In this document: positions 5,618-10,773 of the stretch, one piece after another | How the letters are laid out: each line of letters begins with the position of its first letter | How positions within the stretch are numbered: position 1 is the first letter of the stretch | Source of the DNA: Kiritimatiellia bacterium | GTDB taxonomy: Bacteria > Verrucomicrobiota > Kiritimatiellia > SS1-B-03-39 > UBA6053 | Length of the DNA stretch: 32,827 nt | Direction: 5' to 3' | Assembly: GCA_018401235.1 (NCBI GenBank) | Contig: JAGYLC010000013.1 | Location: forward strand, 1 to 32,827 | The notes under the pieces: generated by a model | Database searches by the model: none | Told to the model about the DNA's origin: nothing | Seen by the model: only the letters and a program-made list of their open reading frames with translations | Translations under genes and position numbers: made by a program

Positions 5618-6715
5618 TCAGGACCCACTTTCGTTCAGGGTCATGGTGATCCGGTTGCCCTTTGGACTCGGTTGCCAGACGATGTCACGCACAAGGCCCT
5701 TAAGGAGGGTCATTGCCGATTCATCTCCTACTTCCGCATCCGTCAGGAAATCACCCGGAGCCTCCTGATCCTCAAACTGGAGTTGAACCGTGCCCTCTGT
5801 TTCGGAATAGGAAAGCGTGACGGTGATAGCCCCCGAATCCCCACGCTGGTAATAAAAAGCCACGATCTTCTCGATGGCCAACTGAATGTGTTGCAACAAC
5901 GTGCGGCTGAAAAAATGTTTTTCGCAGAAAGTTTCGATATCCGCGTTCATTTCAAAGACATCAAAATCCCGGTGCTCGATATGATAGCGGAAGCTGCGAA
6001 GGCGGTTGATGAATACCCGAGTTCTTTCCCGCTGAGGCGCGCTCATGATCTGTTCTGGGGGACCTGATTCATAAATGCCACCTTCATCCATGTAAAAAAT
6101 CCGCTTGGACACATCGCGGGCGAAATTCAGTTCGTGTGTCACAATCACCATCGTCATCCCTTCGCGGGTGAGTCTGCGAATGACCGCCAGCACCTCGCTG
6201 ACCATGGTGGGATCCAGTGCGGAGGTGGGTTCATCGAACAACATCACCTTCGGCCTCATGGAGAGGCACCGTGCAATGGCGACCCGCTGTTTCTGGCCGC
6301 CCGAAAGTTCGCAGGGAAGGCTAAGGGCTTTCTCGCCCAGACCGACCATGCGCAATAGTACGTGACTACGCGCTTCCGCCTCCTCGCGTGCCTCGTTCAA
6401 AATCCGAACCGGACCAATGGTTAAGTTATCCAACACGGTCAGGTGGCTAAACAAATTGAAGGACTGAAACACCATGCCCGTTTTACGCCGAATACGGGGA
6501 ACATCCGCCCCCGGGTCCAATATATCCTCGCCTCCAATGAAAATGTGTCCGCTTTGCGGTGTTTCCAAGCGATTGATGCAGCGCAAAAAGGTGCTTTTAC
6601 CCACGCCAGAGGGCCCGATCACCGAGACGACTTCCCCTTCCTGGATCGATGCCGAAACATTTTCCAGCACACGCTCGTTTCCAAAACGCATGGAGAGGTT
6701 CTGAATTTCAATCAT
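5618..6715 (-). CDS. Amino-acid ABC transporter ATPase fused to a C-terminal GHKL/RsbW-like domain
   Basis: Residues 1 to about 238 form a polar-amino-acid ABC ATPase: Walker A GPSGVGKST (34-42), Q-loop Gln84, signature LSGGQ (137-141), Walker B VMLFDEP (157-163) and H-loop His194. The usual family ends near FINRLR (about 235-240), but this chain continues to 365. The tail resembles an anti-sigma-type histidine-kinase ATPase fold: QHIQLAIEKIVAFYY where the N-box helix should be, FEDQEAPGDF near the G1 box, and LLKGLVRDIVW plus GNRITMTL as the last helix and strand. The N-box Asn and box glycines appear replaced, so ATP binding is doubtful. I chose ATG 6715 (MIEIQNLSMRF); it overlaps the permease gene end by 8 bp. 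A longer frame to 6766 would lie inside the permease gene. Confidence 0.88.
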   Translation of the reverse strand: MIEIQNLSMRFGNERVLENVSASIQEGEVVSVIGPSGVGKSTFLRCINRLETPQSGHIFIGGEDILDPGADVPRIRRKTGMVFQSFNLFSHLTVLDNLTIGPVRILNEAREEAEARSHVLLRMVGLGEKALSLPCELSGGQKQRVAIARCLSMRPKVMLFDEPTSALDPTMVSEVLAVIRRLTREGMTMVIVTHELNFARDVSKRIFYMDEGGIYESGPPEQIMSAPQRERTRVFINRLRSFRYHIEHRDFDVFEMNADIETFCEKHFFSRTLLQHIQLAIEKIVAFYYQRGDSGAITVTLSYSETEGTVQLQFEDQEAPGDFLTDAEVGDESAMTLLKGLVRDIVWQPSPKGNRITMTLNESGS

Positions 6716-7427
6716 GTCCGGAGCTCCTCTGCCTCGACAACCGCCTTGGCTGGAGACGATTCTCAAGTCCGGTGAGCGCCATCAGCAGCAGCCATGAAAT
6801 CATAAAATAGAGACCCGCGACCATGACCAGCGGAAAAAAGGCGTCAAAGGTGCGACTGCGGATGATGTCTGCCGTGCGGGTGAGATCCTGCACAGCGATA
6901 AAACCGACCACGGAGGTCATCTTGACGAGGTTGATCACTTCGCCTTTGTATACCGGCAAAATCCGGCACACCGCCTGCGGGGCGATGATGTGGGTGAAGG
7001 TCTGCACACGGGTAAACCCGAGCGCCAGCCCCGCCTCCCGTTGTCCAGGATCGATGCTTTCAATGCCGGCGCGGTAAATCTCGGCGGCATAGGCCGCGAA
7101 GGTGGCCGCGAAGGTTGCGATGGCCACCCAGACCGGAGAAATGTTCACGGAGGCAAAGACAACATAGTAGGCCAGCAGCAGCATGACCGGGAGCGGGATT
7201 CCGCGGATGATTCCGATGTAGGCTTTTGCCGGAACGACCAGTCCGGATCGGCCCGCCATGCGCATGCGGCAAATGAGACCGCCCAGGACAGACCCCAGTG
7301 CGATCGCCCCGATTGAAATCACGATCGTGGTTTTTAGACCATCCAGCAGGAGCAGATACCGTTGCTCCTGCAGCACATTGGCATCTATGCTCTCTGCCAG
7401 ATTCCGGAAGAGCACGACTTGATCCAC
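6708..7427 (-). CDS. Polar amino-acid ABC transporter permease (HisM/GlnP type)
   Basis: This 239-residue inner-membrane protein has about five membrane segments and the EAA loop that docks on the ATPase: AAEIYRAGIESIDPGQREAG followed by LALGF and IIAPQAV. The stretches IGIIRGIPLPVMLLL and GEVINLVKMTSVVGFIAV are typical of the His/Glu/Gln permease family. It starts at GTG 7427, 3 bp after the receptor gene stop, with GGGA about 8 bases upstream. It overlaps the ATPase gene by 8 bp. Only one permease gene is present, so a homodimeric channel is likely. The substrate cannot be read from the sequence. Confidence 0.93.
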   Translation of the reverse strand: MDQVVLFRNLAESIDANVLQEQRYLLLLDGLKTTIVISIGAIALGSVLGGLICRMRMAGRSGLVVPAKAYIGIIRGIPLPVMLLLAYYVVFASVNISPVWVAIATFAATFAAYAAEIYRAGIESIDPGQREAGLALGFTRVQTFTHIIAPQAVCRILPVYKGEVINLVKMTSVVGFIAVQDLTRTADIIRSRTFDAFFPLVMVAGLYFMISWLLLMALTGLENRLQPRRLSRQRSSGHD

Positions 7428-7430
7428 AGG

Positions 7431-8228
7431 CTATTCCCTGACCAGTGCCGCGATACCGCCCTGATAATACCGCTCCGAGAAAAGAACGCGTTTGGCGCGT
7501 TCCTCGGTAATGGTGATGCAAGCCCCGATCATGTCCACCCTGCCGGAGGCGAGGGCAGGAATCATGCCGCCAAAATCCATATTGACCACGACCAATCTTT
7601 TTCCGAGCCGTTGGGCAATCCGATGCGCCAGTTCAATGTCCAGACCCACAACCTCGCGGCTGCCATCCACAAAGGAAAACGGCTCCGTCACGGCTGCGGT
7701 TCCAAAACGGAGGATTTCGGTGCTGTCGACCGGAGCGAATACCGGCATGGGGGCGGGGGCTCCCTGCGCCGGCAGCCAACGGGCGTGCATCTCGTTGTAG
7801 GCTCCGTTTTCGTTGATTTCCCGGATGACCGCGTCCATGGCTTCTTTCAGTTCCACATCCCCCAACCGTACGGCAAATCCATACTCGTCGACGGTAATCA
7901 TTCCATCGAGCACCTTGAGCCCTGGGTTTTTTGCGGCGATATTTCTCAAAATGGGTTCATCATAGGCGGCCGCATCCGCCCGACCGGCCTGAACGGCCAT
8001 ACAGGCATCCAGCACACTGTTAAAGTAATCAAATGTGGCATCCGGAAATCGGGAGAGCACCAGTTGGTCCGCCACGGTTCCAGTCGGCACAGCAAAGGTC
8101 GCTTCCGAAAGCTGTTCCAAGTCCGTGATCGTTTCGCGAGGGCCACGACACCCGGTCAACCAAACAAAAACAAAAAACAGCAGCAACCCGAACGGGGGGC
8201 GTAAACAAAGATTCAAGCATTTTTTCAT
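7431..8228 (-). CDS. Amino-acid-binding lipoprotein with circularly permuted SBP_bac_3 domain
   Basis: This 265-residue protein has a signal peptide with lipobox LTGC (Cys27). What follows is in unusual order. Residues about 35-153 match the second half of a solute-binding protein: DLEQL, PTGTVADQL, AGRADAAAYDEP, GFAVRLGD and NGAYNEMHARWLP, which normally ends the family. A linker rich in Ala and Pro (154-168) leads to residues about 172-265, which match the first half: ILRFGTAAVTEPFSFVDG, VVGLDIELAHRIAQRLG, ALASGRVDMIG, ITITEERAKRVLFSERYY. The chain ends at the hinge, where the C-lobe would normally begin. The ligand-type Arg244 and Asp90 are kept. The start at 8228 (MKKCLNL) was chosen because it gives a clean lipoprotein signal. 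It is the first gene of the operon. Confidence 0.87.
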   Translation of the reverse strand: MKKCLNLCLRPPFGLLLFFVFVWLTGCRGPRETITDLEQLSEATFAVPTGTVADQLVLSRFPDATFDYFNSVLDACMAVQAGRADAAAYDEPILRNIAAKNPGLKVLDGMITVDEYGFAVRLGDVELKEAMDAVIREINENGAYNEMHARWLPAQGAPAPMPVFAPVDSTEILRFGTAAVTEPFSFVDGSREVVGLDIELAHRIAQRLGKRLVVVNMDFGGMIPALASGRVDMIGACITITEERAKRVLFSERYYQGGIAALVRE

Positions 8229-8616
8229 AAAAAATTCCATTTTGCATAAGAAATAAATAACACAGGTACCTTGGCAAGCATGAATCCCGAATACAACACA
8301 TTTTAAAAACAACCTTGTGGATTTCGATCCAACCAAATCCTGTGCGCTCTCACGGAATTTCGCATAAAATAACTTTGATTTGCTGCCAGATTTCCTCGGA
8401 TTCTTACGCGTATTAAAGAGTTTTTGCTACCTACTTAAACGGCAGGAGGGTGTTCAGATTCATGCGTTTGGCCATGATATCATGGGCGCAGCGGATTCCT
8501 CCTCCATGAAACCAGAGCCTCCTCCGGTGATGATTACGTACTCGCAGCCCCGACATCCCCTGACAACGGGAGGAGAACAAACGGCCGAAGTCCCGGGCCA
8601 CGCGGCACTAGTCCGA
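8229..8616. other. Intergenic, no gene recognised
   Basis: This is the 388-bp region upstream of the receptor lipoprotein gene. It is AT-rich near the gene and should hold the operon promoter. A TTGCCA hexamer lies near 8270 on the minus strand, but no convincing -10 hexamer at standard spacing was found. Open frames here have no recognisable motifs. Confidence 0.5.
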
Positions 8617-9635: not shown

Positions 9636-9664
9636 AAAAAAAATTCTTGCTGCATCAGCAAGAA
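9636..9664 (-). terminator. Rho-independent terminator of the NOS gene, overlapping its stop codon
   Basis: Read on the minus strand, TTCTTGCTG (9664-9656) and CAGCAAGAA (9652-9644) form a perfect 9-bp stem around a 3-base loop, followed by eight T residues (9643-9636). The TGA stop of the nitric oxide synthase gene (9657-9655) starts at the last stem base and fills most of the loop. Confidence 0.85.
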
Positions 9665-10773
9665 ATGGTTTCCTGATCTTGATAGAAAAAATTGGGAAGT
9701 TCCGCACGTGTATCCCATGATTTATGAAATAAAGGCGAAGTTGAGCCTGAAATCGGCGGGACCAACCAACTCCAATCGCCCTTGACATTGCGGCCACAGT
9801 GGTTTTCCTGTTTGGCGAATCGGATGAATTGATTTGAGGCGTTATGGTGATCGATCATTGTGATTCCGTCTTTCTCAAATGAATATAGGACTGCTTCATT
9901 CAACTCGATGAGGGAGCGGTCTTTCCAAAGGTGGTTACGACGGTTCATTTCTAGCCCCATTTTAGATGCAATTGCGGGAAGCATGTTGTAGCGATTCTCA
10001 TCACTGAGATTTCGGGCGCTGATTTCGGTTCCCATATACCAGCCGCTGAAAGGGGCGCAGGTATATCTTGCGCCGGCAGCTGCAAAACACATGTCGGTAA
10101 TGATCGGGACTGCATGCCATTTCAATCCCAGTTGCTCAAACCATTTGTATTTTGGGTGGCGAATTCGGACTTCGACGATCACATCGCGCGGAATTTCATA
10201 CCAGCGAATTGGCTGATTGGGAATTTGGATTGCGAGCGGCAGGATATCAAAAGCACTGGGGTTTTTGGGCGGATTCCATCCGGAGTGGAGCGCGATGCGC
10301 GTAAACCATGCATTTTGGGGGTCGCCAAGAATTTTGCCGTCACCAATATCATATCCGGCGTATCGGATGAGCTGGTGATTGAGTATTTTTGGGCCTTGTT
10401 TATTTTGATCGGCTGGAGCAAAAATGCTGAGGACGGGCTTGATGCGTCCGCCATTGGTTGCGATTTTTAGGTGTTCAACGCATGCCTCAAATACATCATC
10501 AGCAAGATTTACGTGCCGAAGATCACGGACGACAAGGCTGCGCCAATACAATCTGCCGATGCAACGTGTTGCGTTTCGCCACGCCACTCTCCCAGCATGC
10601 TCGAGCAGCTCAAACGGCAGGGCAGGCGGGCACTCTGCTGGGGAGGATTGAGGATCTGTGGCGGACACCCCTTCGCATGCCGCCATATGGAGGAAATCCA
10701 AGTATTCTTTGTTCGCATTTCCACTTGGAGCACGGGCAGTTTTACCCTCGGGGTAATAGATTGTTTCAAGCAT
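9655..10773 (-). CDS. nos: Bacterial nitric oxide synthase oxygenase
   Basis: This 372-residue protein matches the NOS oxygenase domain throughout. It has the heme-thiolate motif AWRNATRCIGR (proximal Cys71), the arginine-binding segment GWYMGTEISARNL (catalytic Glu250) and the pterin/heme-edge segment WSWLVPPISGS (about 334-344) followed by LFHKSWD. It lacks the N-terminal zinc hook and any fused flavin reductase, like Bacillus-type NOS, so NO production from L-arginine would need a separate cellular reductase; none is nearby. The ATG at 10773 follows an in-frame stop directly, so it is the first possible start, but no clear ribosome site precedes it. Local GC is lower than in the hydantoinase genes (23 of 60 bases in 9841-9900 against 39 of 60 in 13501-13560), suggesting transfer. 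Confidence 0.96.
   Translation of the reverse strand: MLETIYYPEGKTARAPSGNANKEYLDFLHMAACEGVSATDPQSSPAECPPALPFELLEHAGRVAWRNATRCIGRLYWRSLVVRDLRHVNLADDVFEACVEHLKIATNGGRIKPVLSIFAPADQNKQGPKILNHQLIRYAGYDIGDGKILGDPQNAWFTRIALHSGWNPPKNPSAFDILPLAIQIPNQPIRWYEIPRDVIVEVRIRHPKYKWFEQLGLKWHAVPIITDMCFAAAGARYTCAPFSGWYMGTEISARNLSDENRYNMLPAIASKMGLEMNRRNHLWKDRSLIELNEAVLYSFEKDGITMIDHHNASNQFIRFAKQENHCGRNVKGDWSWLVPPISGSTSPLFHKSWDTRAELPNFFYQDQETISC

Follow-up and report, generated by a model that had tools for sequence, protein, structure and literature searches.

Partner switching is, to our knowledge, described almost solely from transcription control, and the post-translational control of ABC transporters is poorly understood. 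SpoIIAB/RsbW domains form dimers, and the ATP-lid of SpoIIAB lies near its contact with SpoIIAA. Binding of a STAS protein to an ABC ATPase has a precedent in MlaB, which binds MlaF (PMC7367683). A search covering mainly freely accessible papers found no literature on ABC-RsbW fusions. We describe here such a fusion in a Kiritimatiellia bacterium (GCA_018401235.1, contig JAGYLC010000013.1). It lies in a stretch of 32,827 nucleotides that was analysed whole, referred to hereafter as the window. The gene belongs to a three-gene importer operon on the minus strand, which runs from the substrate-binding protein (SBP, 8336..7431) through the permease (7427..6708) to the ATPase (6715..5618).

5618..6715, minus strand: ABC ATPase fused to a pseudo-RsbW tail; 365 aa, ATG at 6715, stop ending at 5618
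5996..6715, minus strand: ABC ATPase domain of the amino-acid (PAAT) type, residues 1-240; GlnQ model matched over 1-238, E 5.5e-90
5618..6019, minus strand: tail of SpoIIAB/RsbW-type GHKL fold without the ATP motifs, residues 233-365 (AlphaFold2, Foldseek, VIA-align, motif table, dN/dS)
5855..5881, minus strand: degenerate N-box LAIEKIVAF, residues 279-287; K283 for Glu and F287 for Asn (motif alignment)
6708..7427, minus strand: permease, His/Glu/Gln type; TIGR01726 60.9 bits (cut-off 42.2), BPD_transp_1
7431..8336, minus strand: lipoprotein SBP (SBP_bac_3) with reversed halves (Pfam half order, half-profile test, AlphaFold2)

An earlier note on this DNA, made from the letters alone, had correctly placed the ATPase gene at 5618-6715; it is read from the minus strand, and its alignment with relatives begins at residue 1. 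The permease gene shares 8 nt with the start of the ATPase gene, and the true start of the SBP is likely to be near 8228. A scan of the operon for promoters and terminators found sites no more numerous than in shuffled sequence. The description of a complete ABC ATPase followed by extra C-terminal residues was also accurate. Residues 1-240 are intact, with the Walker A motif GPSGVGKS, the LSGGQ signature, DEPTSALD and the H-loop TH all readable, and about 120 residues (~239-365) extend beyond the ABC domain. These motifs, together with a full-length match to the GlnQ/HisP-type model, place the protein among PAAT ABC ATPases. Its score of 300.9 bits is under the GlnQ equivalog cut-off of 379, so that the family can be assigned and identity with GlnQ cannot.

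Pfam detected both SBP_bac_3 halves in the SBP in reversed order, that of a circularly permuted protein. In the AlphaFold2 model (pLDDT 95), residues 144-236 match the N-terminal lobe (~1-98) of arginine/lysine binding proteins at 30-44% identity, and this match sits at the C-terminal end of the model. A half-profile test, applied to ORFs with both halves, gave the reversed order in all 41 testable SBP ORFs lying upstream in, or fused within, operons of fused ATPases. The same order was found in 8/37 control SBPs; the permutation is therefore wider than the fusion. Circular permutation of an SBP has a known precedent in OpuAC (PMC2395249), while mainly freely accessible papers yielded no literature on permuted SBP_bac_3 proteins. 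In some relatives the whole importer is contained in one ORF of 900-1140 aa, comprising one or two permuted SBPs, permease, ATPase and tail (L008 1658-5080, L011 1673-5080, L012, L018, L019 and L021). Upstream of the window importer, on the same strand, lies a gene for a protein with a nitric oxide synthase oxygenase domain (9655-10773, minus strand; PF02898, E 6.8e-136). Given this gene and the resemblance of the SBP lobe to arginine-binding proteins, one may speculate that the importer supplies arginine to the nitric oxide synthase protein.

The identity of the tail was assessed by profile and by fold. Against Pfam HATPase_c_2 the window tail scored 19.9 bits (E 7.8e-4), below the curated cut-off of 27.4; of 24 related tails, 8 reached E <= 0.1, with a best value of 1.9e-6. 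Because the match is sub-threshold, sequence alone is suggestive and the fold comparison decides. An AlphaFold2 model computed from 24 aligned tails (pLDDT 87, pTM 0.82) has the order strand-helix-helix-strand-strand-helix-strand-strand. Foldseek returned 18 matches to this model at E <= 0.001. All were SpoIIAB, RsbW, UsfX or Rv1364c RsbW chains, most of them from structures solved together with a STAS or sigma partner. VIA-align gave Z scores of 11.5-13.2 for the SpoIIAB/RsbW/UsfX group, 11.7 for SiaB and at most 8.1 for histidine kinases. By all three methods the tail has the Bergerat fold with SpoIIAB/RsbW topology. The tail profile matched no sequence in the PDB up to E 1, so that homology rests on the fold and on linking sequences; the same profile retrieves standalone and phosphatase-fused RsbW-like proteins from other genomes. 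We conclude that the tail is, with near certainty, a SpoIIAB/RsbW-type GHKL fold that has lost its ATP motifs. The degenerate GHKL module proposed in the earlier note is thus strongly supported by model, fold searches and motif alignment. The NIL or ACT fold weighed there against it had no Pfam match up to E 1, and SpoIIAB/RsbW structures head the Foldseek results.

The motif alignment comprised 62 ABC tails, 10 MATE, 7 standalone, 3 phosphatase-fused and 1 DAACS domain; two truncated ABC rows were removed, leaving 60 ABC tails for the counts. Where standalone RsbW-like proteins have E-E-x-x-x-N, the window tail has E282-K283 and, four positions later, F287. The GGLG box is missing, and none of the GHKL ATP-binding residues (N-box Glu/Asn, G1 Asp, GGLG) is present. 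Lys and Phe at the N-box, and G boxes devoid of glycines, had been read from the sequence before, and the alignment bears out both. The lysine is peculiar to the window gene, the N-box Glu being kept in 57/60 fused ABC tails, nearest relative L002 included. The N-box Asn is kept in 10. The ABC tails have lost GGLG, their ATP-lid segment is shortened, and the place of the G1 Asp is most often taken by Tyr. Most of them conserve an F-[DN]-P-L motif and, in the C-terminal strand, the Asn. Standalone RsbW-like proteins retain the N-box Glu (7/7) and Asn (7/7), GGLG (6/7) and the G1 Asp (6/7). Judged from these motifs, the tail is likely to be unable to bind ATP and is predicted not to act as a serine kinase towards a STAS protein. 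A pocket vacated by ATP could take another ligand, and the tail sits where some ABC ATPases are known to have C-terminal regulatory domains; it might thus sense a small molecule, either substrate or nucleotide, and exert allosteric feedback on uptake, like NIL in MetN. Across the family, however, the residues of the pocket show poor conservation, and the genomic context described below indicates protein partners, which makes such a sensor improbable.

A survey of the fusion across genomes, as the earlier note had proposed, revealed a single clade, with members in at least seven phyla. In a quick LG+G4 tree of the ATPase domain (57 fused and 85 non-fused sequences) the fused ATPases arise on one branch (SH-aLRT 99), indicating a single origin. 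Named members come from Bacillota, Bacteroidota, Spirochaetota, Pseudomonadota, Thermodesulfobacteriota, Actinomycetota and Chloroflexota. Among the window's relatives the fusion is present in 3/58 genomes, and this patchiness suggests transfer or loss. Rhizobium and Mycolicibacterium plasmid matches that apparently covered the tail were rejected: by annotation they are ordinary ATPases of ~245 aa with separate downstream genes. A Selenomonas ruminantium plasmid copy (WP_014431153.1) has the tail together with a permuted SBP. It is annotated merely as "amino acid ABC transporter ATP-binding protein", an example of how public annotation conceals the fusion.

When the window gene is compared with that of G009, whose ATPase is 92% identical, the ATPase has a dN/dS of 0.08 and the tail one of 0.17. 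The tail is therefore under purifying selection. Loss of the ATP motifs and divergence of the tail (19-31% identity to relatives) would be expected of a decaying remnant without function; this dN/dS, and the retention of the tail by one clade in so many phyla, leave that reading almost no credence.

Genes near the fused loci were compared with those near non-fused GlnQ-type paralogues of the same genomes, using home-made profiles for STAS proteins and SpoIIE-type phosphatases. A STAS or SpoIIE/RsbU-type phosphatase gene was found within ~8.5 kb at 16/52 fused loci and 0/40 non-fused loci (Fisher p 4e-5), STAS at 11/52 and phosphatase at 14/52 of the fused loci; about 70% of the fused loci have neither within reach. 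These neighbours lie on the transporter strand in 25 of 29 cases, one STAS gene being only 6 bp from the transporter ORF, and several of the phosphatases have dCache and HAMP domains, the layout of an extracellular sensor. Example neighbours were confirmed by Pfam search. In a census by Pfam family of the two closest non-transporter genes to either side, with no family preselected, STAS came first at the fused loci (8/138), with SDF (4) and SpoIIE (3); at control loci all three fell outside the top 25. In Lachnospiraceae, an RsbU-like phosphatase (best E < 1e-40, a threshold set after seeing the data in order to exclude sporulation SpoIIE) occurs in 22/22 sampled genomes with the fusion and 72/277 without it (p 1e-12). 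This p-value and that of the neighbour test overstate the significance, since the loci and genomes are phylogenetically related. STAS domains fused to an APH-type phosphotransferase were also seen near fused importers (L184 9378-10565, L175 16277-17455, L193 13297-14481).

SpoIIAB and RsbW bind sigma factors, and the earlier note had suggested that the tail could couple transport to a sigma-factor or phosphorelay switch. Were the tail to sequester a sigma factor, the state of transport would govern transcription. The 25 families met most often beside the fused loci in the census include none of sigma factors, and a membrane-bound, ATP-dead tail would make an unlikely anti-sigma factor. Sigma sequestration is therefore highly improbable, and a phospho-switch of the RsbU/RsbV type that targets the transporter is the better fit. 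The broader proposal of a regulatory, partner-binding switch finds support for the family, in which STAS and phosphatase genes accompany the RsbW-like domain, but not for the window locus, which has neither nearby.

Profile searches found no STAS or phosphatase match anywhere in the window. The genome, which is 85% complete, has its only standalone STAS and phosphatase pair on another contig (C2, L094 4351-6392), the STAS gene being directly followed by a GAF-type SpoIIE phosphatase; no clear standalone RsbW was seen among the matches inspected. Similarly sized phosphatases are encoded by relatives in which the fusion is absent, so that this pair is probably not dedicated to the importer, and it may be a core partner-switch system. 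A phosphatase is near-universal in the window's own class (54/58 genomes), and its presence is uninformative there. In the nearest relative, G009, a dCache-HAMP-SpoIIE-HATPase_c_2 protein is encoded ~2.8 kb away on the opposite strand. For the window transporter itself a STAS partner is putative.

RsbW-like domains also occur on other transporters. MATE proteins with such a C-terminal domain are encoded in the same clusters as fused importers (L184 12104-13825, L162 9328-11049, L191 6464-8221). The first of these combines MatE with HATPase_c_2 at E 3.6e-18, and the ATP motifs of the MATE domains are intact in some and degenerate in others. Na+:dicarboxylate symporters beside fused importers (L015 5190-6785, L019 392-2023, L012 2941-4167, L026 3-1295) have ~130 extra N-terminal residues that look by eye like a degenerate RsbW and are under Pfam detection; the tail profile picked up L026 alone, which makes the symporters the weaker part of the case. 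The tail could instead be a structural module for dimerisation or stability, paired tails holding two ATPase subunits together without any signal. ABC ATPases act as dimers, and the SpoIIAB/RsbW-type relatives of the tail are themselves dimeric. The C-terminal extension of MlaF performs such a role (PMC7367683). A purely structural module would leave unexplained both the STAS and phosphatase neighbours and the RsbW-like domains on the unrelated MATE transporters, and we consider it unlikely, if worth bearing in mind.

The best explanation, to which we give a probability of roughly 60%, is that the tail, a GHKL domain of SpoIIAB/RsbW descent now devoid of ATP binding and kinase activity, gives an amino-acid ABC importer a docking site at which an RsbU/RsbV switch acts to gate transport. 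The switch would begin with the dephosphorylation of a small, RsbV-like STAS protein by an RsbU-type phosphatase, which in many cases has an extracellular Cache sensor. In its unphosphorylated form this STAS protein would then bind the tail and alter ATPase or transport activity, turning it on or off. A catalytically intact RsbW-like kinase encoded elsewhere would rephosphorylate the STAS protein and so release it. This role is supported by the STAS/phosphatase linkage, the census, the Lachnospiraceae co-occurrence, the G009 neighbour, the MATE domains, the fold relatives, the contrast in ATP motifs between fused tails and standalone proteins, and the MlaB-MlaF precedent. Against it count the lack of either partner gene at the window locus and at most fused loci, the probably non-dedicated STAS and phosphatase pair of the genome, the relatedness of the loci and genomes compared, the shortened ATP-lid, and a window tail without even the N-box Glu. 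A wider idea, that the RsbU/RsbV/RsbW switch acts directly on transporters as a general bacterial strategy (ABC importers, MATE proteins, perhaps Na+:dicarboxylate symporters), is more tentative, and we place it a little short of an even chance. If it is true, an external signal would set solute traffic without transcription, through a STAS protein received by RsbW-like domains on the transporters. The clade-wide presence of the tail on an importer and its linkage to STAS and sensor-phosphatase genes make the docking role directly testable with purified parts.

The importer resembles GlnQ/HisP-type systems and GlnPQ fusions in its ATPase, permease and SBP families, and in the SBP-permease fusions of relatives. 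It differs from them in its C-terminal GHKL tail, its permuted SBP and, in some relatives, its single polypeptide. The glycine-betaine binding protein OpuAC shares the natural circular permutation (PMC2395249) but is of a different SBP family; the window SBP is SBP_bac_3 and is cut at the inter-lobe hinge. MetN-type ATPases likewise carry a C-terminal addition after an amino-acid importer ATPase; theirs is NIL, which is undetected in the window gene, where the fold is GHKL. To the anti-sigma kinases SpoIIAB and RsbW (HATPase_c_2, PF13581) the likeness extends over nearly the whole tail (Z 11.5-13) and includes, in most members of the fused family, F-[DN]-P-L and the C-terminal-strand Asn. Unlike these kinases, the window tail lacks the N-box Glu/Asn, G1 Asp and GGLG, has a shortened ATP-lid, is fused to an ABC ATPase and belongs to a family with no sigma factors among its commonest neighbours. 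In MlaFB (PMC7367683), finally, the activity of an ABC ATPase likewise requires both a STAS protein and a C-terminal extension of the ATPase. There, however, MlaB contacts the ATPase domain directly and the extension measures ~25 aa, whereas here it is a whole RsbW-type domain.
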